DNA of 64,000 nt from Sipunculus nudus (taxonomy: Eukaryota; Annelida; Sipuncula; Golfingiida; Sipunculidae): assembly GCA_026874595.1 (NCBI GenBank), contig CM049310.1:45537058-45601057 (forward strand). The letters are read 5' to 3'. Position 1 is the first letter of the stretch, and each line of letters opens with the position of its first letter. The position numbers and the translations under genes were made by a program. Under the pieces are notes generated by a model that was not told the origin of the DNA, made no database searches, and saw only the letters and a program-made list of their open reading frames with translations. Shown here in pieces: positions 4,792-49,819 of the stretch.

Positions 4792-5043
4792 GTGATTAGC
4801 AGACCCTCTAAGATATACTCTAAAAGAATAAGACTTCTGAATACCGCACTAGAAATCTACGCTGAAAAAAACGCATGGACTCTGCTAATGAATGATAACC
4901 TTGGTCCATTTTCACTAAAATCTGACAACCTCCATCTAAACAAGGAAGGCTCAAAGGCATTCCGTTCAAATATATGTGATGTAATCAAAATCGCAACCTC
5001 TCTTAAAAATTTTCACAAGCAAGCAGTAATAGAATTAACATGA
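4792..5043 (+). pseudogene. LINE ORF1 C-terminal fragment (SGNH/esterase-like)
   Basis: About 83 codons ending in DNLHLNKEGSKAF. The DxxH pair matches the catalytic Asp-His block V of SGNH hydrolases, a domain known in ORF1 of CR1-group LINEs. The N-terminal part is lost by 5' truncation. The stop codon overlaps the ORF2 start as ATGA (5040-5043). Confidence 0.7.
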
Positions 5044-7973
5044 ACAGTACCCCTTACAACGAGAGTTACTTACCTGGTCACAACAATGACGGGTTCATTC
5101 CCGATTATCAAAACGTGCCTTCCTCAAACACGCATGATAATGGTACCTCAATTGAAACACTCCTACAGTGTATCCGAAAGAAGAATGGCCTAACTATAAT
5201 CCACTTAAATGTAAGAAGTCTTCCTCCCAAGTTCGACGAATTAGTGCTCCTCTTAAAGGTTGGTTCGGTCCATGTAGTATGTCTCACTGAGACTTGGTTG
5301 GACGATAGTATCGCAACCCATGAAATCGAAATCCCGGGGTATACTCTCTACCGAAAAGACCGAAATAGACGTGGTGGAGGTGTTGCCATTTATGTACAAA
5401 GTTCCTTGCAATCTACCGTATGTCCTTTTATTTCTAATGATCATCTAGAAGTAATCTGGGTCCAAATTCAATGGAACAGACGTAACTCTCTGATCGGGTG
5501 AATATATAGACCGCCTCACTCTGACAAAAGTTATTTACAACTTCTCTTCGATAACATTAGCCTTGCTATGGCTAAACATGTTCATACAGTGATCATAGGC
5601 GATTTTAATATTGATTTTAATAACCCCAAAGCGTCTATAAATGTTGAGTTGGTGAATATGGCCACATCATACAACCTTCATCAACTTATAACCTCCCCAA
5701 CTCGAGTCACCGCAACCTCATCCAGTACGAAAGATTTGATTTTTACAAATACACCCGGTATTCACTCATCATCCGGCGTTATTCCGTGGTCACTTAGCGA
5801 TCATTATATTATTTTTACCCGGCTCTCAGGAGGCAGTTGCCAAAAAGGAACCAAATTTGTGAGAGTTAGGTCCTTTAAGAAATTTGATCCCCTTGCCTTC
5901 AAGCAGTCCATTCAGTCATCATTAACATTTCACTGTCTTCCCGATGTAAATGATGTCATCTCAGAATCTATGGCGTGATGAATTTCTGACCATATGTAAT
6001 AAACACGCACCTTTTAGAACGTTTAGAGTTAGAAATAATAGACACAATCCCTGGATGTCACCTGATATCCAGCGTCTAATATATAACCGAGAACGCATTC
6101 GTAAATCTGCTGTGTCAAATAATGATCCACAGCTGTGGGCACAGTTCAGGCGGTTACGTAATCGGGTCACTTGCATGATCCGTCAACTGAAACGTTCATA
6201 TTATAGACACAAGGCACAGTCATCAAAATCTCCCAAGGAGATTTGGCAGTCTTTAAAACACGTGATCAATCCAGTTAGCCGGGGTCAAGATAGTCCAGAT
6301 ATAATCGGGATGACCTGAATGACTTCTTTGCCTCAGTTGGAAAAACTTTAACCAAAGCATTTACCAAAGATGTTGTGCAGGACCAACCTGATTTTACTGA
6401 TTCTCGGTTTTCAATCCCTCAAATGAGCCAACAGGATGTCGTGAAACTTCTAGTCGCATTTAAGAATAAACATGGCATTGATGTCCTTAATATGCCGGGG
6501 TTCTTACTTGGAGAGGCTGCGGTCATCTTAGCGCCATCGCTGACACATATTCTTAACTTATCACTCAGTACAGGAATAGTTCCTCCTGACTGGAAGTGTG
6601 CAAGGGTGGTACCCATTTATAAGGGTAAAGGGAAACTTTCTGATACTAACAATTACCTGCCAATTTCGATCACCAGCCATGTGATTAAAATCTTAGAGAA
6701 GCACATGAAACGTCATCTCCTTAATTACTTAAACCACAAACGCTTGATATCTCCTGAACAAACTGCCTTTCTTGCAAACAACTCTACCCAAACTGCATTA
6801 CATAGAATAGTTGATAATTGGCTGACAGTTATAAACTGCGGACGTGTAAACTCCATATGCTTTCTCGACCTTAAAAAAGGTTTTGATTCCCTAAATCACG
6901 ATATATTATTGGGTAAATTAAAACGGTATGGCGTAAATGGAAACTGGCACACCTGGTTTTATAATTATTTATACGACCGAAAGCAGTTTGTCTGCTTCAA
7001 TAACTATAATTCTGAGGTGAAAACCATCGATACAGGTGTACCACAAGGCACTGTACTTGGACCCATTCTTTTCCTACTATATCTTAATGACTTGCCCGAT
7101 AATGTAACAGACGCAAAATGCTCGATTTATGCTGACGACATCACGCTATACGCAGACGGCATCGATCGCGAATCAGCACAACATAAGTTACAGGCTGCTG
7201 TAGACCAAGTTACTAAATGGCTTAATAAAAACAAACTAATTGCAAACACCACAAAATCAGCTACTATGCTTGTGAGTTCCAAGCAACGCAAACAATCAAA
7301 TTCATTACAAATAATTATCGATAAAGATATTGTCCCGAATGTCGATGAATTTTCTCACCTTGGCTTGATCATTGACGCCCATCTCACATGGAAATCTCAC
7401 ACTTCTACCGTTTTTCAACAGCTATGTTGCAAAATTGGACTTTTACATCGGCTCAGCAAATTTCTACCACAGAAGTTTTTAGTCACTATATATCACGCCT
7501 TTGTTCAACCCTCAATAGATTATAGCCTAACAGTATGGGGCAGCTGTCCCAGCACATTCCGTGCCGCAATCCAACGAATGCAGTGTCGTGCGGCTAGGAT
7601 AATAACAAAAAATTACGACCCAACTCAAAGAAGTTTAGATTTAGTGAAAGAAATAGGCTTAATGACAATTGAACAGCGATATTTGTACCTCCTATCTATT
7701 TTAACCTATAAATGCATAAATGATTTAGCCCCTTCATATTTATGTAAGAATTTTCATATGGCGAAGGGCATTCATAATTATTCGACGCGGTTAACCGAAA
7801 ACAAAAATTGTATCCTTCCGAAACCGCGTATTGAAGCCTTCAAGGCTACCTCTTTTTATACAGGCAGTACTCTATGGAACTCCCTTCCTCGACACATTAA
7901 GTTTGCTTCTAATTTGCAGCATTTTAAAAAATTATCACGTTCGTACTTCTCCGATTTTACAATGATGTCATAA
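5040..7973 (+). pseudogene. LINE ORF2, endonuclease and reverse transcriptase, broken
   Basis: AP-endonuclease motifs are in order: LNVRSL, CLTETWL, GGGVAIYV, GDFNID, SLSDH. Then comes a reverse transcriptase with LDLKKGFD, GVPQGTVLGP and YADD, and a C-terminal LWNSLP block. Lesions: TGA at 5499-5501 between GGGVAIYV and YRPP; a frameshift near 5950-5975; another near 6290-6315. The conserved NYRPIS motif reads NYLPIS. The longest open piece is 6375-7973 (532 codons). It cannot make a full protein as it stands. Confidence 0.9.
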
Positions 7974-14425: not shown

Positions 14426-15637
14426 CTTCTAAAGTAAAGAACATTTATAAAGGTCAATGGCCATTTGTGGGTGTGTCTGTGTATGGGGGTGGGAAGGGGG
14501 GGGGGGTGGGGAAGGGCGAGTTGAGGGGCTCCTTAGAAACTGAAAGGCATTTTAAAGCAATAAATTTGTCTCTATGCATCAATGAATAATAATGTGTTCT
14601 TTTTTTATATAAATTTATATTTAAACATGATAAGTTAAAACCCATAAAACCAAGTTATAAATTACTAGTAATTGAAGGAAGAACTACTATTACTAGACGA
14701 CACACATATTTATGTGTGTGTAGGGGTGTGGGTGTTTGTTCAGGTGTTTCTGTGCATGTGTGTAACTATAGCCTATATCTTGCCTGCATACACGTACGTT
14801 TTAGGGTTTGAACGGACATATTTCCTTCTTTTTTTCAGAGGTCTTTCATGAAGCTCTGGACAGAGACTAAAAAAAATTCGTGGTTGAGCACACGTTACAT
14901 GTTTATATATTAAGTCTTACTCAAAGAAGGCTGAAACACATCATGGTGAAAAAATTATTTTTCAGTCATAAGTGACAGTCTCACGTGACAGAAACTATCC
15001 GCATATTCAATAACAACTTATGTATTCGTTAAGTTTATTGAACGATTTTTTTCTGAATTAACTACCTATTAATATTCTCAATGTAAGCGTTAAAACGTTA
15101 GTAAGTATATTATTTAAGTGTAGAGCCTCTACACTGATCGTGACATGCGGCAGTGTCCCACAGACATCTTATTGGATGTAGGTTGTGTCCACTCATTTGA
15201 CTCATTTCCTCTAAATACACGACAGGAAACACGTATGGCTAATGAAAGATGTGTCACGTTGACTTGTAACTTCATTCTAGTTCATATTTAACGAATACAT
15301 TAATGTCTAACACTCCAAGTTGTATCAGTCTTTGGACCTCCGGTTCTGACGTGCACTCAAATGTATCATGCTTGAACCGAATTGATTTACTCTTTATAAA
15401 TTCTTTAAATAAACCAATATGTGTATGTACGTTTATATCGGTTCATTTATATAAATACATGTACATCTGCGTGTTTCTGTGTCTGAAATTAATGAGGCGC
15501 AGAGTTCACTACACCACATTATTATGTTAAAACAAAATTATTACTGTATCTTAGGTCAAATGCTTGTAACTAGTTTCAAATTTCACCGACAGATGCCGCT
15601 ACCTGACTCACGGCACCTAGGTTTGCTGGGTGCGACC

Positions 15638-16267
15638 ATGGCTGTGTACCTGCCGACCCTTGCCAGCTCTTGGACAGTATCTGCTCGGAATCTGATCTCA
15701 GCTCTCACCAGTATGATTCCCGGCGGACAAAAAATACGTGAAAATAGCTCAAACCCTCCCCTGTGGTTAACAATCGCAGGAATATTACCAAGTTTCATCG
15801 GTGCATACATAATATTAAAATACTTGTATCATCGGAGAAAAAGTAAGCTGCTGCCAGTTGTTCATTTAGGAAACTCCACGGTACCTCTTTACATATGGCT
15901 GGCCAAGCAGCGGCAAAAACGTGGCGAAATATTTTATATCACATTGAATCGACAGGAGATTTTGGTGCTTAATAGTTATGACGTCATCAAGGAAGCGTGT
16001 AGCGACAGGAAAACGGATTTTGGAGATCGGACACACGAGTACGCTGCACTGCGGTCTTCCTTCAATGGCCTCGATCTGGGTTTCACAGATTTTGGTTCAG
16101 AATGGATATTCATGCGCAAACTTTCCACCAGGGGGCTGCAAAATCCACTAAAACACATGCCTGATCTAATGCAAGAGGAAGTAGCCGAACTACTTACAAA
16201 GTGTGTCGAAAACAAAGATTATAGCGCGGTGATTGCGGAGGTGCACGTGAACACTATGTTACACCTG
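15638..16267 (+). CDS. P450 exon 1 (anchor to C-helix)
   Basis: Codes for residues 1-210: N-terminal extension, membrane anchor, the VVHLGN turn, and the WIFMR C-helix motif that contacts haem propionate in P450s. It ends phase 0 at CTG followed by GTATGT. In-frame ATGs at 15479, 15524, 15560 and 15593 are alternative starts with weaker context. Confidence 0.9.
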
Positions 16268-19200
16268 GTATGTTGACTTTATTGATAACTTATTAAGTGA
16301 TTAAAAGGATACATTGTAAGTCAATGCAATTTACAACATGACGATACTATTATCCGGCATTTTCAGTAGTACAAGGGTACCTGTCTGAAAGACCACAAAA
16401 ATAATAAGACCACCTGTCTATTAAGACCACCCTTGAGTGAACCGAACGCATTCATATTGGTTATAACTGACCTGTATGTCTATAAAGACAAACTGTGAAT
16501 TGAGACAACATTTTTTTTTAGTCCAGCAGGTGGTCTTATTACACAGGACTCGCTCTACTTGATGTTTTCCGAATTTAAAATCCGTGGATTGTGTTCATGA
16601 CTACAGGCATAATTTGTATTTCAAGTCAGTTGTTTTAAAGTGTTAAATGGAGCAAATTTAAAACTAAAGCAATATGATACGTATTCAGTTATACCTCTGT
16701 TACTGCTGCTACAACTTGAAAAAAAAAATCAAATATTAGCCCAAATCAAATTGAAAAATGCAACCCAAAACGTGACAGTTATGTTGAAACCGCATTGCGT
16801 TTAGCTTTGAAACTAGGCTTTTCGACATAAATATTGAAAACTTGTCTGTATGTGTTATAAAGGATGGATATTATACAACACATTTTCTTTTTAATTTTTG
16901 GTATCATATGTAAGTTTAGGTGTCGGTTGTTAATCTGATTTGTTATATTCTCAGCTATGTGGGAAGAGAACGGAGGGTATCGGTATTAAGGTTAACGACG
17001 TGCTAGACTTTGGCGCCCTCTGGTTGGAGTGCACGGCACCAGGCTTCGGCTCGGAGCAGGACTCCTATCCCATACTTCGCCTCCTACCGCTCTCGGACAC
17101 ACACCGGAAGTTACGTGATCTCCACAAACTACAGAATGAGATAATCCATCCCATAATAAAATGCGCAATGGTGAGTATGGCAGCACAACAGTGTTATACA
17201 TTGAAGAAAGGTTTGCATGTTCTTGGCCTACATCACAGGGCATTTTGGCATGTCTCTTCAAACATTGCTTAATGCATTGATAACTCCAAGGGCGGATCCA
17301 GGATTTAGAAAAAAAAAAGGGGGGGGGGGGGGGTCCAACCCAGGAGGACTAATAAAACCCTTAAAAAAGGTCCCAAGGTCTGGAAAAGGGGAGGTCCAGA
17401 CCGCAAAGTTTTGTCTGAAGCCCTTGAAAAACTTTGTTTCTGATGAAAAAGGAGGGGGGGGGGGGGGGTCCGGACACCCTGCCCCCCCCCCCCCCTGGAT
17501 CCGCTTCTGAACTCTGTTAAAAGATTTCACTTAATTGTTGAATTTCAAAGCAGAATGATATTTGTCAAATACACAAAATCACAGATTCTAATAGACATCC
17601 ACATTAAAAAACAAAACGTGAAAAATATGATCTGTGGTATAACTGTAACCATACAGAGTGATACACATTCGTACGCGCAGAGAAGGTCCCAGCTTTCATT
17701 ATATTTGCCTTTTTAATACTTTCCTGTGGATATAAAATACACTTGGGCATATAGACAAAGTTTACATTTTAATTCCCCTTTCTTTTAATAGGTATGCGAT
17801 ATGGTTCACATTAATTTACACAAATCAGTAACAGCGCACCTATCCCTGCATAACTACTTATGTATCACAACTGTTGATCTATTTGTTTATCATATTTAAG
17901 GGGACCGCCGGCGAAAACACGGTTATACGATACTTCGCGGAAAACATGAACCACTCGTTAGGGAATTCATCATCGTCGACCAATACACTAAAAGGACTGA
18001 CACAAACCTTCCTTATAGCAGGTGAAGTTTACATAAAAATATTTTTCAGATAATAACATCACTGATTACTATTAAAATTACTATTTACTATTAGCCCTCT
18101 GTCATATTTAGTCATATACATACCGACGAATCAATGTTGCATTTTCGCCTATTACGTAGTTCATTCTGAAATATATATGTTTATCTGTTGAAATATTTGG
18201 AATATTTGGAATATTAGTTCTAGATGTAAAATAATGCGTTCAATTTTGCTCTCAATTAGTCAAAGATACAGTGGGCTGTTTTCTTTGACAGGATTAAAGT
18301 CTACGGCAGATGAAATTATTTAAATCGGTTTTTATTGAAACATCTTCTTGGCCCCATAAAAATCCCTGATCTTTCCTTGACAACAATTCTGAGATTGTGC
18401 GCTGCTCTGTATGTTTGAATGTTAGTTAAATTTCAAATTTGATTAACCTAAAAACTCTGGGTTTACAATAAGAGTTAAGTTTTAATATTATTCATTGTGC
18501 TATATTTTAGGTATAGAGACCGTGCGATCAGCATTTACACATTTAGTATACCTGGTTGCCCACCATCCACGTGTTCAAGACGTTATTCATTCCGAGTTGG
18601 ACACAGTCGTGGGGAGACACCTGAAGCCAGCTTTGTCGCACAAGGCCGACCTGCACTTCCTAAACGCAGCCATACTGGAGACCCTGCGGTTAGTTACGGT
18701 GGTGCCATCTGTCAGGCGACGGACGAGAACAAACACCAAAGTTGGGGGATACCAGCTACAGGCCGGAACACAGGTAGATACAAATATTTTTTTTTCTGCG
18801 GGTGTGTCTGTTAATTTTACAGAACGACAGTGAACAGTTTATTGAATAAAGATGTAATACGGATAGCTCATTACGACATCTGGTTCTTTAAGCAGTACCA
18901 CCGCTTTGTTAAGACGTTGCTAAGTGATTCACGTGCTGGCTCTCGGAGCAGAAGGTACACCGTTCGTCTACGAGGTTCGATGTTTTATGGTGAAATTGTG
19001 AAATCACAGCCAACAGAATCACGGAATTGACTGTCTACTCCACCAGTTGTGACTTCTGGATGTCCCTAAATCGGTGTATATGAAACCTGAAGTCGAAAAA
19101 GCTTAAAATAAAATCATCATACTAATCATAAATGTTTAAAGAAAAGAGTTTGTTAAGTACATGGACTTCATAGTAATGTAAGCCTTTGAAAAGTTATTAA

Positions 19201-27474: not shown

Positions 27475-30400
27475 ATGAGATGTTACATGCATGATTCCCT
27501 GGATGAAATTCTCGATCAAGAGGACAAGGTTGGTGATCCAGGGGACGAAACTGATGATCAAGAGGACAAAGAGAGTGATCCAGGGGACGAAACTGGTGAT
27601 CAAGAGGACAAAGAGAGAGATCCAGGGGACGAAACTGATGATCAAGAGGACAAGGATGGTGATCCAGGGGACGAAACTGATGATCAAGAGGACAAAGGTG
27701 GTGATCCAGGGGACGAAACTGATGATCAAGAGGACAAGGTTGGTAAACCAGGGGACGAAACTGATGATCAAGAGGACAAGAATGGTGATCCAGGGGACGA
27801 AACTGATGATCAAGAGGACAAGGATGGTGATCCAGGGGACGAAACTGATGATCAAGAGGACAAGAATGGTGATCCAGGGGACGAAACTGATGATCAAGAG
27901 GACAAAGATGGTGATCCAGGGGACGCAACTGATGATCAAGAGGACAAGGTTGGTGATCCAGGGGACGAAACTGATGATCAAGAGGACAAGGATGGTGATC
28001 CAGGGGACGAAACTGATGATCAAAAGGACAAGAATGGTGATCCAGGGGACGAAACTGATGATCAAGAGGACAAGGTTGGTGAACCAGGGGACGAAACTGA
28101 TGATCAAGAGGACAAGAATGGTGATCCAGGGGACGAAACTGATGATCAAGAGGACAAGGTTGGTAATCCAGGGGACGAAACTGATGATCAAGAGGACAAG
28201 GTTGGTGATCCAGGGGACGAAACTGATGATCAAGAGGACAAGGATGGTGATCCAGGGGACGAAACTGATGATCAAGAGGACAAAGATGGTGATCCAGGGG
28301 ACGAAACTGATGATCAAGAGGACAAAGAGAGTGATCCAGGGGACGAAACTGATGATCAAGAGGACAAAGATGGTGATCCAGGGGACAAAACTGATGATCA
28401 AGAGGACAAGGATGGTGATCCAGGGGACGAAACTGATGATCAAGAGGACAAGGTTGGTGATCCAGGGGACGCAACTGATGATCAAGAGGACAAGGTTGGT
28501 AAACCAGGGGACGAAACTGATGATCAAGAGGACAAGAATGGTGATCCAGGGGACGAAACTGATGATCAAGAGGACAAGGATGGTGATCCAGGGGACGAAA
28601 CTGATGATCAAGAGGACAAAGAGAGTGATCCAGGGGACGAAACTGGTGATCAAGAGGACAAAGAGAGTGATCCAGGGGACGAAACTGATGATCAAGAGGA
28701 CAAGGATGGTGATCCAGGGGACGAAACTGATGATCAAGAGGACAAAGGTGGTGATCCAGGGGACGAAACTGATGATCAAGAGGACAAGGTTGGTAAACCA
28801 GGGGACGAAACTGATGATCAAGAGGACAAGAATGGTGATCCAGGGGACGAAACTGATGATCAAGAGGACAAGGATGGTGATCCAGGGGACGAAACTGATG
28901 ATCAAGAGGACAAGAATGGTGATCCAGGGGACGAAACTGATGATCAAGAGGACAAAGATGGTGATCCAGGGGACGCAACTGATAATCAAGAGGACAAAGA
29001 TGGTGATCCAGGGGACGAAACTGATGATCAAGAGGACAAGGATGGTAAACCAGGGGACGAAACTGATGATCAAGAGGACAAAGAGAGTGATCCAGGGGAC
29101 GAAACTGATGATCAAGAGGACAAAGATGGTGATCCAGGGGACGAAACTGATGATCAAGAGGACAAGGATGGTGATCCAGGGGACGAATCTGATGATCAAG
29201 AGGACAAGGTTGGTGATCCAGGGGACGCAACTGATGATCAAGAGGACAAGGTTGGTAAGCCAGGGGACGAAACTGATGATCAAGAGGACAAGAATGGTGA
29301 TCCAGGGTACGAAACTGATGATCAAGAGGACAAGGATGGTGATCCAGGGGACGAAACTGATGATCAAGAGGACAAAGATGGTGATCCAGGGGACGAAACT
29401 GATGATCAAGAGGACAAGGTTGGTAAACCAGGGGACGAAACTGATGATCAAGAGGACAAGGATGGTGATCCAGGGGACGAAACTGATGATCAAGAGGACA
29501 AGGATGGTGATCCAGGGGACGAAACTGATGATCAAGAGGACAAAGATGGTGATCCAGGGGACGAAACTGATGATCAAGAGGACAAAGAGAGTGATCCAGG
29601 GGACGAAACTGATGATCAAGAGGACAAAGATGGTGATCCAGGGGACAAAACTGATGATCAAGAGGACAAGGATGGTGATCCAGGGGACGAAACTGATAAT
29701 CAAGAAGACAAGGATGGTGATCCAGGGGACGAAACTGATGATCAAGAGGACAAAGATGGTGATCCAGGGGACGAAACTGATGATCAAGAGGACAAAGAGA
29801 GTGATCCAGGGGACGAAACTGATGATCAAGAGGACAAAGATGGTGTTCCAGGGGACAAAACTGATGATCAAGAGGACAAGGATGGTGATCCAGGGGACGA
29901 AACTGATGATCAAGAGGACAAGGTTGGTGATCCAGGGGACGCAACTGATGATCAAGAGGACAAGGTTGGTAAACCAGGGGACGAAACTGATGATCAAGAG
30001 GACAAGGTTGGTGATCCAGGGGACGAAACTGATGATCAAGAGGACAAGGATGGTGATCCAGGGGACGAAACTGATGATCAAGAGGACAAAGAGAGTGATC
30101 CAGGGGACGAAACTGGTGATCAAGAGGACAAAGAGAGTGATCCAGGGGACGAAACTGATGATCAAGAGGACAAGGATGGTGATCCAGGGGACGAAACTGA
30201 TGATCAAGAGGACAAAGGTGGTGATCCAGGGGACGAAACTGATGATCAAGAGGACAAGGTTGGTAAACCAGGGGACGAAACTGATGATCAAGAGGACAAG
30301 AATGGTGATCCAGGGGACGAAACTGATGATCAAGTGGACAAGGATGGTGATCCAGGGGACGAAACTGATGATCAAGAGGACAAGAATGGTGATCCAGGGG

Positions 30401-31191
30401 ACGAAACTGATGATCAAGAGGACAAAGATGGTGATCCAGGGGACGCAACTGATGATCAAGAGGACAAGGTTGGTGATCCAGGGGACGAAACTGATGATCA
30501 AGAGGACAAGGATGGTGATCCAGGGGACGAAACTGATGATCAAAAGGACAAGAATGGTGATCCAGGGGACGAAACTGATGATCAAGAGGACAAGGTTGGT
30601 GAACCAGGGGACGAAACTGATGATCAAGAGGACAAGAATGGTGATCCAGGGGACGAAACTGATGATCAAGAGGACAAGGTTGGTAATCCAGGGGACGAAA
30701 CTGATGATCAAGAGGACAAGGTTGGTGATCCAGGGGACGAAACTGATGATCAAGAGGACAAGGATGGTAATCCAGGGGACGAAACTGATGATCAAGAGGA
30801 CAAGGCTGGTGATCCAGGGGACGAAACTGATGATCAAGAGGACAAGGATGGTGATCCAGGGGACGAAACTGATGATCAAGAGGACAAGGATGGTGATCCA
30901 GGGGACGCAACTGATGATCAAGAGGACATGGATGGTGATCCAGGGGACGAAACTGATGATCAAGAGGACAAGGATGGTGATCCAGGGGACGAAACTGATG
31001 ATCAAAAGGACAAGAATGGTGATCCAGGGGACGGAACTGATGATCAAGAGGACAAGGTTGGTAATCCAGGGGACGAAACTGATGATCAAGAGGACAAGAA
31101 TGGTGATCCAGGGGACGAAACTGATGATAATGAATACACAGTTGGTGATCCAGGAGACGACAGTGTTGACCCAAGAGGGAGAGGACATTGA
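27475..31191 (+). CDS. Hypothetical acidic repeat ORF across the minisatellite
   Basis: An ATG-initiated 1238-codon frame: MRCYMHDSLDEIL, about 87 tandem 14-residue units rich in Asp/Glu, then a short DSVDPRGRGH end. Acidic low-complexity secreted proteins exist in mollusc shell matrix, but there is no secretory leader here. Substitutions in this frame are mostly amino-acid-changing (D to V, N, K, G), which argues against purifying selection. Three other frames are equally open. Recorded as a possibility only. Confidence 0.15.
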   Translation: MRCYMHDSLDEILDQEDKVGDPGDETDDQEDKESDPGDETGDQEDKERDPGDETDDQEDKDGDPGDETDDQEDKGGDPGDETDDQEDKVGKPGDETDDQEDKNGDPGDETDDQEDKDGDPGDETDDQEDKNGDPGDETDDQEDKDGDPGDATDDQEDKVGDPGDETDDQEDKDGDPGDETDDQKDKNGDPGDETDDQEDKVGEPGDETDDQEDKNGDPGDETDDQEDKVGNPGDETDDQEDKVGDPGDETDDQEDKDGDPGDETDDQEDKDGDPGDETDDQEDKESDPGDETDDQEDKDGDPGDKTDDQEDKDGDPGDETDDQEDKVGDPGDATDDQEDKVGKPGDETDDQEDKNGDPGDETDDQEDKDGDPGDETDDQEDKESDPGDETGDQEDKESDPGDETDDQEDKDGDPGDETDDQEDKGGDPGDETDDQEDKVGKPGDETDDQEDKNGDPGDETDDQEDKDGDPGDETDDQEDKNGDPGDETDDQEDKDGDPGDATDNQEDKDGDPGDETDDQEDKDGKPGDETDDQEDKESDPGDETDDQEDKDGDPGDETDDQEDKDGDPGDESDDQEDKVGDPGDATDDQEDKVGKPGDETDDQEDKNGDPGYETDDQEDKDGDPGDETDDQEDKDGDPGDETDDQEDKVGKPGDETDDQEDKDGDPGDETDDQEDKDGDPGDETDDQEDKDGDPGDETDDQEDKESDPGDETDDQEDKDGDPGDKTDDQEDKDGDPGDETDNQEDKDGDPGDETDDQEDKDGDPGDETDDQEDKESDPGDETDDQEDKDGVPGDKTDDQEDKDGDPGDETDDQEDKVGDPGDATDDQEDKVGKPGDETDDQEDKVGDPGDETDDQEDKDGDPGDETDDQEDKESDPGDETGDQEDKESDPGDETDDQEDKDGDPGDETDDQEDKGGDPGDETDDQEDKVGKPGDETDDQEDKNGDPGDETDDQVDKDGDPGDETDDQEDKNGDPGDETDDQEDKDGDPGDATDDQEDKVGDPGDETDDQEDKDGDPGDETDDQKDKNGDPGDETDDQEDKVGEPGDETDDQEDKNGDPGDETDDQEDKVGNPGDETDDQEDKVGDPGDETDDQEDKDGNPGDETDDQEDKAGDPGDETDDQEDKDGDPGDETDDQEDKDGDPGDATDDQEDMDGDPGDETDDQEDKDGDPGDETDDQKDKNGDPGDGTDDQEDKVGNPGDETDDQEDKNGDPGDETDDNEYTVGDPGDDSVDPRGRGH
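27508..31170. repeat. 42-bp minisatellite, about 87 copies
   Basis: The unit reads GATGATCAAGAGGACAAGGA, then TGGTGATCCAGGGGACGAAACT. Variation is concentrated in the AAG-GAT-GGT-GAT stretch. Because 42 is divisible by 3 and the unit has no stop in four of six frames, four overlapping open frames of 1238-1337 codons arise. In one + frame (27475-31191, ATG start) it would make an acidic 14-residue repeat (DGDPGDETDDQEDK). No signal peptide, splice evidence or recognisable flanking domain supports translation. Large blocks are near-identical at offsets of 25, 30, 35 and 60 units. Confidence 0.95.
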
Positions 31192-38600: not shown

Positions 38601-41600
38601 GATCAAATGGGAAGTTAGGGGATCAAAAATATAAAATATATAATAAAAATATAATGTGCTGTTGATTCAATAGGCTGGTGATTATATTACAGCTGTGTTG
38701 ATTGTGAGTCTATGTGGCTTAACACCCCCACATCCGCCTTCCTACATGTTTATATATCCCTAACAAAACCACACATACACGGATTATCGTGTCAGATTAT
38801 CGCTGTAATCCTGGTCACAATCATTCTACAATTTCACTGAGGTCTATAGAAGAACCACCCTTGAAATCGAGGGTAATCCGGTACATATGGAAATTTTCGT
38901 ATGCTCTCGGAGGATACCGCCGGTATTCTTCGTGCGTTTTCGGAGAGCTCCGTCTGTTATGTTCGTGCGTCCTCGTACTACATCGTAGTTGTAAGCTTTC
39001 AATAGAAACAGGAAGCTAAGTTATTCATTGGATGTTTTGTTTGCAGAACCAAATGTACTTTAAATTAGACAAAATGCATCATGTTACAAAATAGATTACC
39101 CTTAACAATATTCATGAAAAGATACCTATGAGATATTATGGATGGAACAGTTATATACCTTGATACATCTGGAATATTACTCATAGTGTCCTGTAATTGA
39201 CACATTGACAGGATCAAAACATTATCAATAAGATATTACTGAGTTACAACAGGCGTAGTAACACTAAATTAATCAAATTTATTATTTCAACATAAATATC
39301 ATTTAAACGTTCTTTTGACGTAGTTTATCCCCTTCTTCTTGGGTCAATGTACATATTTACATTTCTAAAGCACTGGATTTACCTTTCTGTAGATAGTAAG
39401 GGCTATGGCTTGGTATGTATACTGTGAATTCAGAAATGCAATCGGTCGAGAAATTAACATTGAAGGACTCGAGTACGGACTTGGACTCGAATCCGGACTC
39501 GTCTATACTTATTTAAGGACTCGGATTCTTACTTGGACTACAGGGTCCTGGACTCGGTCATGTACTCGGACCCGGAGGTAAGGACTCGAGAAACTAGGCA
39601 GAGTATTTTTCGAGTCCAGCAGGTAGGAAGCTCTGTCACATACTGGGAAAATATTTAATTACAGGGGAAAACTTTTGACAGAATATTACAAGAGAAAGAG
39701 TTTATATACCAAATCTTAGCTCTGCATTGGGAGCTAAATGTGACTAAACATTCAAGTCAAAAGCATGTGACATAAAAATACTTGAAGTTATCTTAAATTT
39801 CAATTTTAAAATTCTTTTAATAAGGAGTTTTTTTGGGGAATGGACTCGGATTTGGACTCGGGTTCAAGATGATTTGGACTGGTAAAAGGTGGACTTGGAC
39901 TCGAACCTCAAGGACTCGGACTTTGACTCGGACACAGATGGTGTGGACTCGACTACATCAGTGTTTCAGAGTGAATACTATAAGGTCAATAATTTAAATC
40001 TTCATGGGCCACGTTGTATCATCATCATTGCGCGCATATAGAGATCTACATTTTCTTAACAGTAATTTAGTTCAAAGGTATAATGTTACACACGAAACTA
40101 AAGTCTGTAACATCACTTTGCTCCAGGGTGCGCCAGACGAGGGTACTATGACCCGGATGTAGTGATGGCGGGATTTGGAAACACTGTGTAAGTTAATTAT
40201 AAACATGGATTGTATCATATGTCATCATGTCTAAGCCCGGCACTAAAGAGTCCTTCTGTTCTGTTGGGTATATATATATATATATATCCCATATAAAATA
40301 AAATTCCGCACGAGTTCAAGTATATGATTATGTTGAATCAAAGTCTCAAATTTTAACTTTCGTAACAAGCGTGATCAGTTCTGCATGATCTTTGTCTACG
40401 TCTAAATGTCAACTTTAAATAGTGACTAGTCTTCCTAGGAAATTCCTAATCGATTTTCAAAGGCCATCTTAAGTTCGGTGACTGCAAAGCATGACAGCTG
40501 TTTTGTTACAGCAGAGGCGGTTTTTCAAAATAAACTTCAGTACGTAGGAATAAAAGGAATAAAGACAGACCTCGTGCGGCTGTGAAGTATTTTATAAAAT
40601 ATTTTATACAAGTATACTTGTTGTCACTGGAATATATACCCGCATATTCCAATATTTCACATATTATTGTGACCGTATTATAAAAAAGTTCAGTAAAAGC
40701 AGAAAAGGCGCAATAAATTCTGGAGCCGTGGCAGGAATTCTTTAGAGAAACTTTCTCTTTCCGGTAGGAGTAATACATAGTTGTTTCGCGTTCGTATACG
40801 CCTTGCATAATCTATGAGGTTGACTTTGACGCTGAACTGGGGATTTATCTAGAATTCTAGATATATAACACTCACTTCTTGTGGTCTCAGTTCAATACAA
40901 TATTTGCCTTGTGAATGAATATAAAGAAACTCCATCCGTGTCAGATCATATGTAGGCTAATGCTGTTCTGATTTCATGAACATAATTTACAATAAATTTT
41001 GCCCAAAAAATAGTTTCACACTAATTGTTTACTTGCAAATTGTGAGTAATTTATAATGTACAGTTTCAGCATTCTAGATGCATATCCTGTATACCATAAT
41101 TGCACCCCCACCAGGGGCTTGAGATAATATGTAATCAAACGTTTTGTACCTAATTTGTTTGTTATTGTAAATAGCATAAATAAAAGCGCGTTAAAAAATC
41201 AGCCATTTATCTGTATTATTTTTTATTTTACGAAGATTGACACCACCTGTAAGTTGGAACGTGACGACAACTTTCAAGGAGGCTTCCCACTTCACAATGA
41301 GGGATGGGAATGTCCTTAAACTGTCAGCACGTGCCGTTGTCAGGGTAACGGACATCGACGAAGATGGAACACAAGACCTCGTTGTGGCGAGCGAGGGAAA
41401 AATCTTCTATTATCGCCAGGTCAATGGGAAGCTTGAACCTGCGGCTGATATCACATCTGACGGTAGACCAATTGACACCGAATGTAAAAACCCGAAGGGA
41501 ACCGGATTTGCATACACTGACATCACAGGTGACGGCCAATCAGATATCATAATCAGTGCAGAGAAGACCCTCTATTACTACCCTAGCTCTGGACGACGTC

Positions 41601-43366
41601 ACGCCACCTTCAGAGCCAGAGTAATGTTAGGCAAAATACATTCAGATATCTTCGATATCGGTGACTGGAACAGAGATGGCTTGAAGGATGTAATTGTTGG
41701 TCAGTTCAACGGGGATTTTAGTTACTACCCTAATGTTGGTAATGTCACAACTCCACGCCTGGGGGCGCTGAGGTCGCTGATAAATCTAGGAACGATGCCA
41801 TATTATCGGTATCCGCGAATTCTGGACGTAAATCGGGATGGAGTGATCGATCTTGTATACAGTATCAATTGGGGAGAATTCGGACTTTGCGTTCAGGGCA
41901 ACGGTGCTTACTTTAACTTAGAAATGCTGAAACTGATAAACGGTGAGAAAATTAACGTCAGGGAGAGGTACAAAGAGCACCAGGCACCAGAGGTTGCTGA
42001 TTTCAATGGCGACGGTATCATGGATTTAATCACTTCCGGACAGACTGGCGATATTATCATTTTTACAGGTGTGAATATCATTCAAGAAAGCCTAAATGAA
42101 ATTCAGTATTTCTTTAACAAGAATGCACTTAACCTAACAGAAGCACTGGATACGGATGACTTTGTCTACAATGCATTATACGACTCTAATCGAAAGCTGC
42201 AATTAGTCGTGAATAGTAATAGCTTTAACATTGAGCAGAAAAAGGAGGTGTTTAACTTTTACGTGTATTTAACCATGAAATACCCCCAGTATCTCCTACG
42301 TCATGCTTGGTCCAGCGGGTCGATGGCTTACTTAGCGTCATATATATGGATTATTATGTCGGAGTGCCTGCCCGACACACCTGAAAATAGGGCTGCTCTA
42401 GCAACCCTAACAAATCAAACACTGTACGACCAAGGTATTTATAGGGACTTCGGTATATTTCTCATCAATAACAACCAGGCGGCGCCACACGCAGTCAAGC
42501 TCATCTACACATTTTTCGCCTTGAAAGACCCGGCATATTATTCACTTTCTATGGTAACCCAGAGAGAATTTTTACAACCGGCGCGCAAGGCAAAGTTTAG
42601 TTCGGTGAGAAATTCAAGTATCAATATATTTGCTGATATGCAGAATGCTGAAAACCCCTTCCCACAAGACTGTGAGGTTTGCAAAGAGTCGCATCGATCA
42701 GTAGGGGTGATGACGTATATAATTGCTCTTGCACATGAGGTTGGCCACAATGAGTTAGACCAAGCAAAAGCCCTCGCCTACAGGCCTGAATTGAAGCTAC
42801 GAAAGTTCCAGATCCTCTCCAAAGTCACAGCTGATCACGTGGTATGGAAAGATCCAGTAGACAAAGGGTATGATGATAATCTCACACAAGCACGTTTCCT
42901 GGAGAGGAAATTATGGGATGGTAAGGGAAATTGGTTCGGATTTATGAGAAGCTTTTTCACCTCGAACAAAGATGGAGTACTTTGCAACATGAACAGCCCA
43001 CGTGGTAACCTTGACTACTTCATCCGGGCACCTCAGGAAGCCTTTGCTACCCTAACCAATCAATATTTCTCAGATTCCAAACTCATGTTAGACTTTACGG
43101 TGGAGAGAACGAAAAAAGGATTTCCAAGAAATCTCGACTGGTTTTTATTGGTAGCTGAATACTATAGTCGTCATGGAAGCATGCTTCCTATGTACGTCAT
43201 TAATACGCGGGGTAACATGAGGCGCTTTTTTGCCTCACTGAAGCGTAACGAGGAAGGATATATTAATGGTTTGACGGTGAAGCGTCCGGATTATGAACCT
43301 GGGCCTCACGTATACAACTTCACCCTCGGAATTGACGGGTTTGTTACGGCTGTACAGACATCGTAA
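35520..43366 (+). CDS. Secreted FG-GAP/VCBS repeat protein with HEVGH metallopeptidase-like domain
   Basis: Exons 35520-35595, 40127-40187 and 41236-43366 join in phase (1, then 2) into 755 residues. Seen: an N-terminal signal peptide ending near GPACS (1-20); five DxDxDGxxD-type calcium loops at about 85-94, 141-149, 189-197, 243-251 and 301-309, matching FG-GAP/VCBS propeller blades; then a roughly 430-residue domain with CEVC (525-528) and AHEVGHNELD, whose HExxH is H546/E547/H550. HExxH is the zinc and catalytic motif of gluzincins. The third ligand is not obvious; E647 in PQEAF is one candidate, an arrangement reminiscent of ATLF-type peptidases. The protein is probably extracellular. 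Peptidase activity is inference: the motif could be structural or degenerate. A second reading is a non-enzymatic lectin-like secreted protein. The family is not recognised by name. Confidence 0.82.
35660..35700. repeat. (AG)n plus poly-G in intron 1 of the FG-GAP gene
   Basis: GAGAGAG repeated, then nine G. Confidence 0.85.
37694..37860 (+). repeat. Second GTTATGC-TTTGTTTG repeat copy
   Basis: Diverged copy of the 24611 repeat, in intron 1 of the FG-GAP gene. Confidence 0.4.
39462..39966. repeat. GGACTC-motif dispersed repeat
   Basis: Two clusters of GGACTCGR/GGACTTGGACTCG words (39462-39600 and 39840-39966) flank about 240 bp of unrelated AT-rich sequence, inside intron 1 of the FG-GAP gene. 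The right end GTCGACTACATCAGTG-type sequence is inverted at 13256. Confidence 0.6.
40127..40187 (+). CDS. FG-GAP gene exon 2
   Basis: A 61-bp exon between CTTTGCTCCAG and GTAAGT, phase 1 in and phase 2 out. It codes for GCARRGYYDPDVVMAGFGNT. Its phases fit exon 1 and exon 3 exactly, which is the main support. Confidence 0.78.
41236..43366 (+). CDS. FG-GAP gene exon 3 (propeller and HEVGH domain)
   Basis: The acceptor is TTTTACGAAG. One 2.1-kb exon holds all five calcium loops and the peptidase-like domain, ending at TAA 43364-43366. The single large terminal exon carrying two domains suggests that the domain fusion is old or that introns were lost. Confidence 0.9.
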
Positions 43367-43648: not shown

Positions 43649-45523
43649 TCGCCAGACAAAGTCTGGAGAAAATATGGTTTGGGCACGGTTGCGCCGCCGC
43701 CGCCGCTGCCGAGATTTCGTTTGGACGCGATAACTCAAAAAATATTTTACGGATCTTTACCAAACGTAAGACGTGCATAGATATGGGTGAGAGGACGGAG
43801 CCTACTAAAAATGGGGTCATGATCTTAATTAGGAGAGTGACCTTGATCTTGAATAGGTCAATTTTTTGGAAAATCACACACATTCTTAAACATCTCAAGA
43901 AATCTTGCATGGATTGATCCAAAAATAAACTTGATCGAAGATCTTAGATAGTGTTGTCATGTACCGGAAACTGGTGGCGCCACCTGTTATCCTTTTCTTG
44001 TTTTCGTGCCATTTAATACCCCTTCATTGCCACTTAACAGTACTTTGAGAATTATAAGTCAAAAGCTAATGGACAGATTTCTTTTATATTATGCATATAC
44101 ATAGACATGGGTTATGGGATGATGTATATTTAAAATGTGGTCATGACCTTTCCAATGAGAGTGACCTTGACCTTGAATATTGCCATATATGGTGAAAATC
44201 ACATTAAATCATAAATATCTCAATAAGAGATGTATGCATTGGTCCAAAAATCAAATTGACCGAAGTTCTTAGATAGCTTTGTTTTTTGTGGAAGACAGGT
44301 GGCGCTTCCTTCTGTCTTTCTCTTGTTTTCGTGCCTTTTAATACCCAATCTTTGTCACTTGACAGTACTGTGAGCATTATAAGTCTAAAACTTGTAGACA
44401 GATTGGGCCGAAATTGAGCATGTACATTGATCATGGATAACTCCATCTTGTAGTCAAGACTGTGGTGCCATCGGCAATCGTTTGCCGTGGCGTCCATCTC
44501 TACATGTGCCTTTGGTGAGAATTGCTCAAATCTCCGGAGTGGTCCTTGGTATTGGTCTGAAATTTGACATGTCCATCCATCTCGGAAATTTTCTCGTAAA
44601 CCAGACAGGTGGCGCCACCTGCCTTGCCGTTTTTGTAGAATAAATTAATGCCCTTTTCTGAGGAGTGATTTGCACTATTGGCCTGAAATTGTGCCTATCC
44701 ATAGATCTTGGCACTCCTCCATCCTTTACTCAAGACAGTTGGCGCCATCTACAATCGTTTTGCTGTAGCATCCATCTGTTCATCTGCTTTAGGTGAAAAT
44801 TGCTCATATGTCCGGAGTGGTTCAAGGTATTTGTCTGAAATTTGGCATGTTTATCCATCTTTGAAAGTTTTCTCATAAACCAGACAGGTGGCGCCACCTA
44901 CCTTTCCGTTTTTGTAGAAAAAAAAATTAATGCCCTTTTCTGAGGAGTGGTTTGCTCTTTTGGCCTGAAATTGTGCATATCCATGGATCTTGGTCTCCTC
45001 CATCTTGTACATAAGACTGGTGGTGTCACCTACCTTCCCTTTTTTTTTAGAATACAATAATGCCCTTTTCTCAGGAGTGATTTTGCCTATTGGCCTGAAA
45101 TTGTGCATATCTATAGATCTTGCACTCCGCCAACTTGTACTCAAGATTAGTGGCGCCTTCTGCAATCGTTTGCCATGACGTCCACATGTATATTTGTTTT
45201 AGATGAAAATTGCTCATATCTGAGGAGCCTTCAATGTGTTGGTCTCCATTTTGGCATGTACATCCATCTTGGAGAGTTTTCTCGTCAACCAGACAGGTGG
45301 CGCCACCTACCTTACCATTTTTATAGTATAAATTCATCCCCTTTTCATAAGAGTGGTTCTCTTTATTGGCCCCAATATTTGCTAAAATATTGTTTCTCAA
45401 GTTGATAGATGGAAGAAACAATAGTCGCTTTTCAATTGTCAGTATATTCTTAAAGGGAGGGGGGGGGGGGGGAATTAATTGCCTGGCGATAATATGGCAC
45501 CTGCGGTGCCAAGAAATATCTAG
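43649..45523 (+). mobile_element. Helentron/pearl-like non-autonomous element
   Basis: Starts TC after A (43648) and ends CTAG before T, the A/T insertion habit of Helitrons. A 15-nt hairpin, GGCACC-TGC-GGTGCC (45496-45510), lies 9 nt before CTAG. ATCGCCAG at the 5' end is inverted as CTGGCGAT just before the hairpin, as in Helentron asymmetric inverted repeats. The core has about 150-bp tandem units (for example near 44490, 44640, 44785, 44930), several with AGGTGGCGCCACCT. This layout matches the pearl elements of bivalves. No Rep/helicase gene is present, so it needs a partner in trans. Confidence 0.68.
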
Positions 45524-46642: not shown

Positions 46643-47449
46643 TCATCGCAAAATCTCGAATGGGAATGCCACGTTAAGAAGTAACAATACAAAAAGCAGC
46701 GCTGAGTTTCCCCAATCACGTGTTCTGGAAGGTGAAGAGGACGGAGCTGTACTCTGAACGTAGCGATTTTTGTCATGTGACCTTAACCAAGATGGCTCCG
46801 TCGCTCTTTCCGGTTCATCGCGGAGAGGCTCCAGTGGGGTTGGGCTGAAGAAAGCTTCAGTTGTCGTCCTAATTCTTTTTGATTTACTCCGTCGGCAGTC
46901 TCCACTCCACCATTTCCGGTACAATCTGGCTATATCTCCCTTCTTTTTTAAAGATTTAATTGCATTATTTAAATCCTTCAGCAGAGGTGAACCTTTACTA
47001 ACAGCGAAAGCGTACTCGTTTGGGTTAAGCAGTTCTTTATCATTTAGTGTAACTAAATTGCACGGTTTGTGTCCGGTGAGATAATCCGCAAATGTACTTT
47101 CCAAGAGAAAAACAAAGGAGCCATTTGAGCGGCGTACTCGGTTTATTCCATCCGTTGATGAACGTTCTAATCCAGAAGGCTCTGACGTAGACATTTTCGT
47201 CCACATATTTTTCAGGTCGGGGTCACGTGACCCTCTGAAGTACCACATCGTCATACTGCCATCAATAACTCCATACGTTAAGTCTGTCTGGTTTGCTAAT
47301 TCTCTAATTGAAGTAACAGGTAAAGTTTCTCCCTTTATTGGTCTTTTGAAGACAGCTTTAATCCCCACAGTAATGAAAGGCTCCGTAAAATCCACGACTT
47401 CCTCCCTCGCAGGTCGTTTACTGAGGGCGCCGGCGGCTACTGTCGCCTC
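46643..47449 (-). CDS. iGluR-like gene exon 4 (S1-S2 fusion, stalk, GPI tail)
   Basis: The acceptor is TATGTTTTAG. One exon carries the end of S1 (ALSKRPAREEVVDF, Arg122), the direct S1-S2 junction, all of S2 (LLEST with Glu224; KPC and GDC cysteines), the stalk and the hydrophobic C-terminus, and ends at TGA 46645-46643. The junction lies inside an exon, so the missing pore cannot be a missed exon. An ATTAAA on this strand near 46628-46623 is a possible polyadenylation signal. Confidence 0.93.
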   Translation of the reverse strand, partial: EATVAAGALSKRPAREEVVDFTEPFITVGIKAVFKRPIKGETLPVTSIRELANQTDLTYGVIDGSMTMWYFRGSRDPDLKNMWTKMSTSEPSGLERSSTDGINRVRRSNGSFVFLLESTFADYLTGHKPCNLVTLNDKELLNPNEYAFAVSKGSPLLKDLNNAIKSLKKKGDIARLYRKWWSGDCRRSKSKRIRTTTEAFFSPTPLEPLRDEPERATEPSWLRSHDKNRYVQSTAPSSSPSRTRDWGNSALLFVLLLLNVAFPFEILR

Positions 47450-48700
47450 CTAAAACATACACATGTAATATACATTTACATATACTGTTACGTTGCGAGG
47501 TTGTTTAATCTATCCTGTAGAGGAAATAATCATGGCACACTATGGAGACATATATTGTCTCGGTATATATATAACGAGTTCGATCCCATTAGAATCAGAC
47601 ACACCACAGGTTAAATTAGAAAATCATTTTCATTGTAAGTGGATATAGATTTAGATTTGTCGAGCATCAGTAAAAATGTTGAAACAAACATTATATGGCA
47701 GCGAAATCATATAAGTGATGCTATACTATGTTTTTAGCATGTGATAATCCTGGTAAGTTTAAGAAACAAACTTTTCTGAATGTAAAAAGTTTCACATGAC
47801 CGTATACATACCTAATTATTTAATTTCTATAACATTTATTTTTTCTATTATGCCCTCATTTATTTCTTGCAGACATGCAAAAAAATTATATCTGATCACA
47901 CGAACCCCTCGTAAAATTTCTCCAATCATTCCGTTCCATGTTCCGTTTCCGGTTGGTCTCCCGTAGCCGCCGTCCTTGACCATTTCGATGGTGTAAGGTA
48001 CCCTAAGTAGACGGGCCAACTTCCGGATGAGGTCTGGGATGAAACCCTCGTAAGGCATTCCTCCTCTCTCATACCCATCATCATGCAGTGTCAGAAATGG
48101 CGGCTCCTACGAAATTACCAATGGATGAAAAAGCCATTGAGCGATTTACAAAATCTCTTATGTACAATCTCTCTTGGCGATGTAATTGTGTTTATTTATA
48201 TACGATTATAATGAAAAACAAAAGGCTATGGAATTACAAAAAAATTCCTTTCCTTCGCTCTTTTCAAATTTCATGATTATTTGATGATTTCCTTCCTGAC
48301 CCATCCATCATAACGCACGATAATAATAATAATAATATGCTTTTAATGTAATTAATAATCACAATAACTGGACTATTACCACATTTAATGATGACAAATA
48401 TTTATAGTTTTTCTTCTACTACTTCTACTACTACTACTACTCATAATAATAATAAAAATGATATAAATAATAATGTTTATAAAAATAATAAGGATATAAA
48501 TAATAATGTTTATAAAAATAATAATAATAAAAGTAAAATTAAAAATAATAATAATTATAAGAATAATAATAAAGTAATATTAATAATAGTAATAATAATA
48601 AAAGTAAAAATAATAATAATAAAAGTAAAATTAAAAATAATAATAATTATAAAAATAATAATAAAGTAATATTAATAATAGTAATAATAATAAAAGTAAA

Positions 48701-48756
<56 letters not shown>

Positions 48757-48841
48757 TAATAATAATAATAAAAGTAAAATTAATAATAATAATAATAATA
48801 TAAATAAAAGTAAATTGATAATAATAATAATAATAATAATG

Positions 48842-48894
<53 letters not shown>

Positions 48895-48905
48895 GGAAAA
48901 TCAAT

Positions 48906-48943
<38 letters not shown>

Positions 48944-49819
48944 TGATAATAATAATAATAATAAAAAATAATAATAATAATGTGTAAAATAGTAAAAAAG
49001 AAAGGATCCTACTGCTTGCTGAAAAGATTACTGAGAAAACATGCTTTTAGAGAAGAAAGGTGAGAGACTTTAACTTGCAGCCGAGAACAGGGAACGACAA
49101 AAACACTCACAACAATACTTGTAAAGATGACCAACTTCTGCTTCCCGCTTCCTTTTCTGGATGTGCCTCCACGACCTGGAAAAATACGCGGAAAAATACG
49201 TGTATCATATACAGGTCAGATTGAACAGCCATCAATCATAGCGAGACGTCCATCTGTCATGATCTGAGTCCTAATCGAGGTAATCTATCACAGGGTGACA
49301 GTTAGTTGGTACCGGTGGCGGGTTAACAATAAACGGGGATATAATGGTTCGGTAATTTGATTGGATTTCACACGCAGGAACAAGTTGTCCAGTTTTGTAT
49401 TACATCACGCCTACTGTGGCCTTGTTCAAACTGTGCTTATCAGTCATATCTTAAATGGCCGTCGAAGTGTGTGTGTGTGTGTGTGTGTATTCGTGCCTCG
49501 GGGACGGATAAAGCGATCCTCTTGACAAAATAAAACGGTAGATATCATTAGTTGCTAACAGTATTACATCACTGTCTTCATGCAACCAACAGTTAATCAT
49601 AGGTACCATTGCCTGATTCTGTAATATATTACATTTAAGCCAAATGAAATCGTTAATAGAACCTCACCGATTTCTGGAATTAATAATCACACAAAGTTAG
49701 TGTAAAGGGAAACTTTACTGACCAAATATTAAGCAATGTTTTTGTATAGAGAATGTACTCTTACCAACTATAAACGGGAAACAAACGACCACCGTCCACA
49801 AGCCAGAACGGAAATCCAT
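46643..49819 (-). CDS. Channel-less GPI-type ionotropic glutamate receptor ligand-binding protein
   Basis: Exons 49819-49765, 49175-49111, 48106-47906 and 47449-46643 join in phase (1, 0, 0) into 375 residues. Seen: signal peptide 1-19; S1 lobe from KLVIFTSIVEPPF to VFKRP (about 32-144); a short IKGETLPVT linker; S2 lobe from SIRELANQ to GDC292; a Ser/Thr/Pro-rich basic stalk; a hydrophobic C-terminus ALLFVLLLLNVAFPF after WGNS (352-371). In known iGluRs about 110 residues (M1, pore loop, M2, M3) separate S1 and S2, and M4 follows S2; here all are absent, as is the amino-terminal domain. Residues matching known ligand contacts are kept: Tyr59, Arg122, Thr174, Glu224. The S2 disulfide pair Cys237/Cys292 is kept too. 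Inferred: an extracellular GPI-anchored amino-acid-binding protein, perhaps a decoy or co-receptor, not an ion channel. Confidence 0.9.
47906..48106 (-). CDS. iGluR-like gene exon 3 (S1 lobe)
   Basis: The acceptor is AATTTCGTAG. It codes for EPPFLTL...PYEGFIPDL...GTWNGMIGEILRG, the core of iGluR S1 including the ligand-stacking Tyr59. The donor GGG followed by GTTCGT is weak but phase 0, and it restores the conserved reading into exon 4. Confidence 0.88.
48390..48985. repeat. (AAT)n-rich tract in iGluR-like intron 2
   Basis: About 600 bp of AAT/TAA trinucleotides with interspersed AAAGTAAAATTAA words. The apparent reading frames here are low-complexity artefacts. Confidence 0.93.
49111..49175 (-). 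CDS. iGluR-like gene exon 2
   Basis: A 65-bp exon between TTTTTCCAG and GTGAGT. It codes for a basic Gly/Ser linker, then KLVIFTSIV, the first beta-strand of S1. It enters phase 1 and leaves phase 0. Confidence 0.85.
49765..49819 (-). CDS. iGluR-like gene exon 1 (signal peptide)
   Basis: The ATG at 49819 sits in ATCATGG, with A at -3 and G at +4. It codes for MDFRSGLWTVVVCFPFIV, a secretory leader. The donor is GTTG followed by GTAAGA, phase 1. The exon continues upstream as 5' UTR to about 49863. Confidence 0.85.

Follow-up and report, generated by a model that had tools for sequence, protein, structure and literature searches.

Can an animal genome encode the ligand-binding clamshell of an ionotropic glutamate receptor (iGluR) as a protein of its own, with no channel to gate? 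This question is raised by a gene on the minus strand (49819-46643) of a 64,000-nucleotide stretch of Sipunculus nudus DNA (assembly GCA_026874595.1, contig CM049310.1, positions 45,537,058 to 45,601,057), which is called the window here. An earlier note, made from the letters of the window, had described a four-exon, in-phase gene for a 375-residue protein. This was borne out to the base: the exons (55, 65, 201, and 807 bases) were spliced into 1128 bases in a single frame that codes for 375 residues and a stop, and all three introns have GT-AG borders. The start codon is in a context with A at -3 and G at +4, and the junction of exons 3 and 4 is crossed gap-free in alignments to two related proteins described below (P0002 and P0003). 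With a probability of about one half, we propose that the gene belongs to the animal iGluR superfamily as a naturally channel-less member, and that its product is directed to the endoplasmic reticulum (ER), held on the cell surface by a glycosylphosphatidylinositol (GPI) anchor, and binds glutamate there to buffer or capture it.

The protein consists of a hydrophobic N-terminus, an S1S2 clamshell of the iGluR type, a 65-residue stalk, and a hydrophobic C-terminus. Pfam searches at an E-value of 0.001 assigned the protein to PF10613 (Lig_chan-Glu_bd, 95 bits) and also to SBP_bac_3 (54 bits), and the best PDB match was an S1S2 construct of GluA3 (E 2.9e-52). Together with the tree described below, these matches indicate that the S1S2 domain is homologous to iGluRs, so that the iGluR descent claimed for the clamshell in the earlier note was supported. 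The channel domain PF00060 (Lig_chan) was not among the Pfam matches of the 375-residue protein at the same E-value; it was matched in all three channel-bearing proteins scanned (P0004-P0006, see below). A nine-residue linker, lying with both of its flanks within one exon, replaces the M1-pore-M3 module, and the channel-less S1-S2 layout that had been proposed was thus upheld. Since the S1 end, the linker, and S2 share the 807-base exon, no splice junction between S1 and S2 is available for an M1-M3 exon. An alternative transcript of a channel gene was considered as an origin of this layout; it is impossible for the window gene, as the S1-S2 junction is inside a single exon, and the relatives are known as proteins only. 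When the spliced protein and P0001-P0006 were compared with the 64 kb by tblastn (E up to 1), only ligand-binding domain (LBD) pieces of the receptor gene were matched, and neither a second copy nor an M1-M3 piece was found. The amino-terminal domain is also absent, as had been claimed: about 30 residues precede S1, and the Pfam match begins at residue 34. This domain is not universal among iGluRs, and kainate-binding proteins lack it.

The hydrophobic tail that follows S2 and the stalk has no cytoplasmic part, and by hydropathy the N-terminal signal and this tail form a GPI-type layout. The tail is compatible with a GPI signal, and we infer that the protein is probably GPI-anchored. The protein contains three N-glycosylation sequons and three cysteines, two of which (237 and 292) align to the conserved iGluR pair C718/C773.

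To place the gene among other proteins, three protein searches were performed with candidates limited to 0.55 to 1.75 times the query length, which excluded full-length receptors (~900 residues). The first two scored only the 8000 candidates that had the most words in common with the query. The query of the third spanned the S1-S2 junction of channel-less members and therefore favours such proteins; its yield (8 of 34 scored candidates passed) has no bearing on their frequency. The searches revealed nine further channel-less proteins (P0001, P0002, P0003, P0007, P0008, P0009, P0010, P0012, and P0013) and four channel-bearing proteins from a tick (P0004), a crow (P0005), a scallop (P0006), and an acorn worm (P0011). 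An animal origin of the DNA is what these nearest named relatives indicate, together with the spliced genes, a P450 exon, and a LINE-type element of the window. Viral contigs were scanned twice by pattern, and none of the 10 and 21 matches was confirmed as a relative. One of the nine channel-less proteins, P0001 (239 residues), is 60% identical to the window protein over 173 gap-free residues; it is located on a 305 kb ENA contig and begins within the equivalent of exon 4. Apart from this pair, the window protein and P0002 are 32-44% identical to the other members. The contigs that hold seven of the nine relatives are 1.06 to 1.40 kb long and have a near-complete reading frame, which suggests that they are transcripts, and P0013 is on a contig of 3.2 kb. 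P0013, which was seen as a protein only, has the sequence ...VLQ|DADFAAAP where the window gene has its border of exons 3 and 4, as though the frame ran from an intron into the exon. Its real coding sequence appears to start at this position, a hint that the intron is shared.

The same layout was found throughout. The S1 and S2 anchors are 24-31 residues apart in all ten channel-less proteins including the window protein, compared with 136-146 in the four channel-bearing proteins and 22-25 in five PDB LBD entries. Every channel-less protein ends with a hydrophobic run followed by 1 to 8 residues, and the channel-bearing proteins have at least 19 residues beyond the best hydrophobic run near the end. 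The stalk is long in the window protein and P0001 and short in the other eight. A structure model of P0002 predicted a clamshell. The claim of a channel-less architecture was thus strengthened by nine relatives and by the model of one of them, and, as judged from these sequences, the channel-less clamshell is a family and not a singleton.

A maximum-likelihood tree was calculated from 19 LBDs (272 columns, LG+G4, GluN1 as the outgroup), two of which are fragments. In this tree and in the approximately unbiased (AU) tests, the AMPA, kainate, and delta rows were mammalian, and invertebrate AMPA/kainate and prokaryotic rows were left out. The ten channel-less proteins formed one clade with an approximate likelihood-ratio support (aLRT) of 99.1 and a bootstrap of 94 (93.9 and 88 without the two fragments), within which the branching order was unsettled. 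The enclosing group adds the scallop P0006 and acorn-worm P0011 receptors (94.9/93; 91.7/88 without the fragments), which are the nearest channel-bearing neighbours among the 19 rows. P0006 (Ylistrum 'glutamate receptor U1-like') and P0011 (Ptychodera 'glutamate receptor 3-like') share the GFIPD/GYIPD motif with the window protein, and P0011 likewise lacks an amino-terminal domain. Both differ from the window protein in carrying Lig_chan (by Pfam in P0006 and by precomputed domains in P0011). The P0006 sequence begins within S1, and its gene model may be truncated.

AU tests rejected an exclusive grouping of the whole clade with mammalian GluA (0.0096), GluK2 (0.00085), or GluD1 (0.0018). Groupings with the tick (0.069), crow (0.107), acorn-worm (0.084), or scallop (0.605) receptor were not rejected. 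When the window protein and P0001 alone were moved, joining them to GluA (0.0045) or GluK2 (0.0033) was rejected, while joining them to the scallop receptor was not (0.29) and joining them to the acorn-worm receptor was marginally not rejected (0.056). Placing the pair outside a group of the other members and the scallop or acorn-worm receptor was not rejected either (0.29 and 0.061, respectively). The phylogeny against AMPA and kainate receptors, which the earlier note had called for, therefore did not place the channel-less proteins with any of the mammalian rows (AMPA, kainate, or delta). A single loss of the channel appears to be the best reading of these sequences, and two losses are possible. 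A nearer full-length channel-bearing receptor may exist beyond the length limit of the searches.

We aligned the channel-less proteins with GluA3, GluA4, GluK2, GluD1, and GluN1 by MAFFT to compare the ligand-binding site; positions are given in GluA2 numbering. The window protein is 35-38% identical to GluK2, GluA3, and GluA4 over the aligned columns. R485 was kept in all nine proteins covering the position, and T655, E705, and Y732 were kept in all ten. The window equivalents of R485, T655, and E705 are R122, T174, and E224, so that the contacts for an alpha-amino acid are present. Y450 was found in eight of nine proteins, the exception being P0013, which has a doubtful start and Ile at this position. 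C718 was kept in all ten and C773 in eight; P0008 and P0009 have the Cys two residues further. Position 655 is Thr in GluA and GluK2, as in the channel-less proteins, and Val in GluN1 and GluD1. Thus, the residues suggest that L-glutamate is the most likely ligand. Position 654 is occupied by M, M, R, L, T, F, Y, F, S, and F in the ten proteins, and with Ser in only one of them the ligand preference may have shifted.

In the proposed mechanism, the N-terminal signal would send the protein into the ER, and the C-terminal hydrophobic signal, probably swapped for a GPI anchor, would hold the clamshell outside the cell. There the S1S2 clamshell would close around its ligand, an alpha-amino acid that is most likely L-glutamate. 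Without a pore, this closure would gate no current, and the surface protein, which is possibly shed, would buffer, capture, or compete for glutamate near receptors; a shed form, if any, would carry the ligand away. Buffering is suggested by analogy with the molluscan acetylcholine-binding protein (AChBP), for which such a role towards acetylcholine has been proposed. Like the sink, decoy, and co-receptor roles raised in the earlier note, it is a conjecture.

Several observations weigh against this proposal. The gene is known here from genomic sequence alone, and the donor of exon 3 (gttcgt) is weak. A hydrophobic N-terminus is present in six of the ten proteins (window, P0002, P0003, P0007, P0009, and P0012); the other four have no clear 5' end, since P0008 begins without Met and P0010, P0013, and P0001 begin at or inside the domain. 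P0003 has an extra hydrophobic stretch (107-123) within the domain. In the window protein, P478, T480, and S654 are replaced by Ala, Ser, and Met, with which affinity and ligand could differ; the other eight members covering both 478 and 480 have Pro and Thr there. By sequence, the tail does not resemble M4 (mean z 0.56; 0.87 for M1-M3), so that its derivation from a shortened M4 found no support, and it could be a short membrane span. In addition, the present tests do not tell buffering from signalling.

The main rival to capture or buffering is a role as a ligand-dependent co-receptor or adhesion partner, in which the anchored clamshell would pair with the LBDs of channel-bearing receptors or with proteins in trans, in a contact altered by closure on the ligand, as a channel-free organiser resembling GluD. 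LBDs of known receptors form dimers, all ten proteins have a tail of the anchoring type rather than one for free release, and the window protein has a long stalk, all of which fit this role. However, GluD uses its amino-terminal domain for trans contacts, and the clamshell has no such domain. We consider the co-receptor role unlikely.

It is also rather improbable that the protein is a sink or sensor for another ligand, such as other amino acids or kainate- and domoate-like compounds from food and algae. The retention of the alpha-amino-acid clamp with Ser 654 in only one of ten proteins agrees with a different ligand, as does the precedent of AChBP and phytotoxins (excerpt of PMC3423370), whereas the invariance of T655 and E705, as in GluA and GluK2, counts against it.

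It is far less probable that the gene is a piece of an ordinary channel gene that is decaying or was mis-assembled. The weak donor and the reliance on genomic sequence are consistent with such a piece, but the 807-base exon is open, the exons are spliced in phase, P0001 is 60% identical over 173 gap-free residues, and ten sequences of one clade lack the channel at the same point. On the strength of the nine relatives, a pseudogene or mis-assembly was rejected. The least credible explanation is that an animal took up an amino-acid-binding protein of the bacterial type and that the gene does not derive from iGluRs; although SBP_bac_3 was also matched and P0007, P0009, and P0010 were automatically named ABC-type amino acid transport substrate-binding protein, the PF10613 match is stronger (95 against 54 bits), the best 60 of 371 PDB matches were AMPA LBDs and one kainate LBD (AMPA LBDs for the best 60 of 421 in a second search), and none of 50 pattern matches was confirmed in a prokaryote scan with two peptide patterns only (84,980 species, one genome each).

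The proposed surface glutamate binder can also be compared with other known systems. GluA2 S1S2J-like constructs are laboratory-made, whereas the window gene is genomic and encodes a secretion-like signal, a stalk, and a hydrophobic tail besides the clamshell. AChBP is a homologue of the nicotinic receptor LBD and a water-soluble pentamer unrelated to S1S2. The window protein is an S1S2 clamshell by sequence and P0002 is one by its predicted model, instead of a nicotinic Cys-loop LBD, so that the likeness to AChBP is one of kind and not of descent. According to an excerpt of PMC3423370, AChBP of gastropods and an annelid is likewise the binding domain of a neurotransmitter receptor freed from its channel as a separate protein; molluscan glia secrete it, it can block cholinergic transmission in cell culture, and its role in vivo is disputed. 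SmGBP of Schistosoma mansoni, a truncated metabotropic glutamate receptor, is a glutamate-binding flytrap minus the membrane domain, located at the cell surface and on the outside of the worm; it is kin to metabotropic receptors and not to iGluR S1S2, and a GPI anchor was of no high probability according to its authors (excerpt of PMC3206071). On balance, we favour the view that the ten proteins represent an unnamed animal family of anchored channel-less iGluR clamshells, which arose probably by one channel loss from an invertebrate receptor outside AMPA, kainate, and delta, diverged widely, and would be dedicated extracellular glutamate binders, a glutamate counterpart of AChBP.

The usual account of glutamate signalling comprises channels, G-protein-coupled receptors, and transporters. 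If the proposal is true, conserved channel-less clamshells add an extracellular protein able to buffer or capture glutamate, and evolution independently made the S1S2 construct of crystallographers. Structural biologists could find in the family an LBD that is channel-free by nature, much as AChBP has served them for nicotinic receptors. No description of a channel-less animal iGluR of this architecture was found among the literature matches listed, as judged by title and start of abstract and with most subscription journals outside the collection, and excerpts of PMC12226733 and PMC2950845 contained no mention of one. In the excerpted parts of an oyster survey (PMC10642201) and a gastropod survey (PMC12837371), Lig_chan is present in every iGluR or ionotropic receptor (IR) described. 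In a wide-ranging survey of glutamate receptors across animals, an iGluR sequence was excluded if it had fewer than four of the residues of SYTANLAAF, a pore motif (PMC6307864, in part), and another survey recognised iGluRs by this motif (PMC5225553, in part). Since the motif is absent from channel-less proteins by construction, the family would be easily missed by such surveys.

Coordinates of the receptor gene and the parts of its product are as follows.

Table 1. Exons and protein segments of the channel-less receptor gene, in positions of the window.
Feature	Positions	Strand	Description
Exon 1	49765..49819	-	Start codon ATG and hydrophobic, signal-peptide-like N-terminus MDFRSGLWTVVVCFPFIV; donor gtaaga; best 11-residue hydropathy 2.43
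Exon 2	49111..49175	-	Spacer and first S1 strand; acceptor ttccag, donor gtgagt
Exon 3	47906..48106	-	First half of S1 (GFIPDL ... TWNGMIGEILRG); weak donor gttcgt; aligned to relatives
Exon 4	46643..47449	-	S1 end, linker, whole S2, stalk, hydrophobic tail, stop; open for 807 bases
S1 end, residues 108-144	47339..47449	-	Holds the conserved ligand arginine R122
Nine-residue linker IKGETLPVT	47312..47338	-	Occupies the place of M1-pore-M2-M3
S2, residues 154-292	46895..47311	-	Conserved T174, E224, Y253; Cys pair 237/292
Stalk, 65 residues	46700..46894	-	Ser/Thr/Pro 25/65, Arg 10/65
C-terminal hydrophobic tail LLFVLLLLNVAFPFEILR	46646..46699	-	GPI-signal-like; best 14-residue hydropathy 2.59; 4 residues follow

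Intron 2 of the receptor gene contains about 540 bases of an ATA/ATT trinucleotide repeat (48443-48981). Downstream of the gene, a unit of about 278 bases is repeated in tandem (44402-45140, 2.2 copies) and is perhaps a dispersed repeat. On the opposite strand, about 3.3 kb from the 3' end of the receptor gene, a single open frame of 723 codons (41195-43366, plus strand) has FG-GAP repeats with matches up to residue 290; the remainder has no Pfam match at 0.001.

Elsewhere in the window, a 42-base tandem repeat (27514-31160, 86.8 copies, 93% matches) has four open frames, 1241-1341 codons long, over both strands, with plus-strand units like GDPGDETDDQEDK. The frame at 27466 gave no Pfam match, and the repeat either codes for a large acidic protein built of repeats or is a minisatellite with a period divisible by three. 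No Rfam or tRNA match was obtained in scans of the window. A LINE-type (long interspersed nuclear element) sequence on the plus strand (5007-7973) has two endonuclease stretches and a 559-codon reverse-transcriptase stretch in one frame with stops between them (PF03372, PF14529, and PF00078). An open frame at 15455-16276 (plus strand) matched the N-terminal part of cytochrome P450 (PF00067, E 6.4e-10, profile positions 27-141 of 462).
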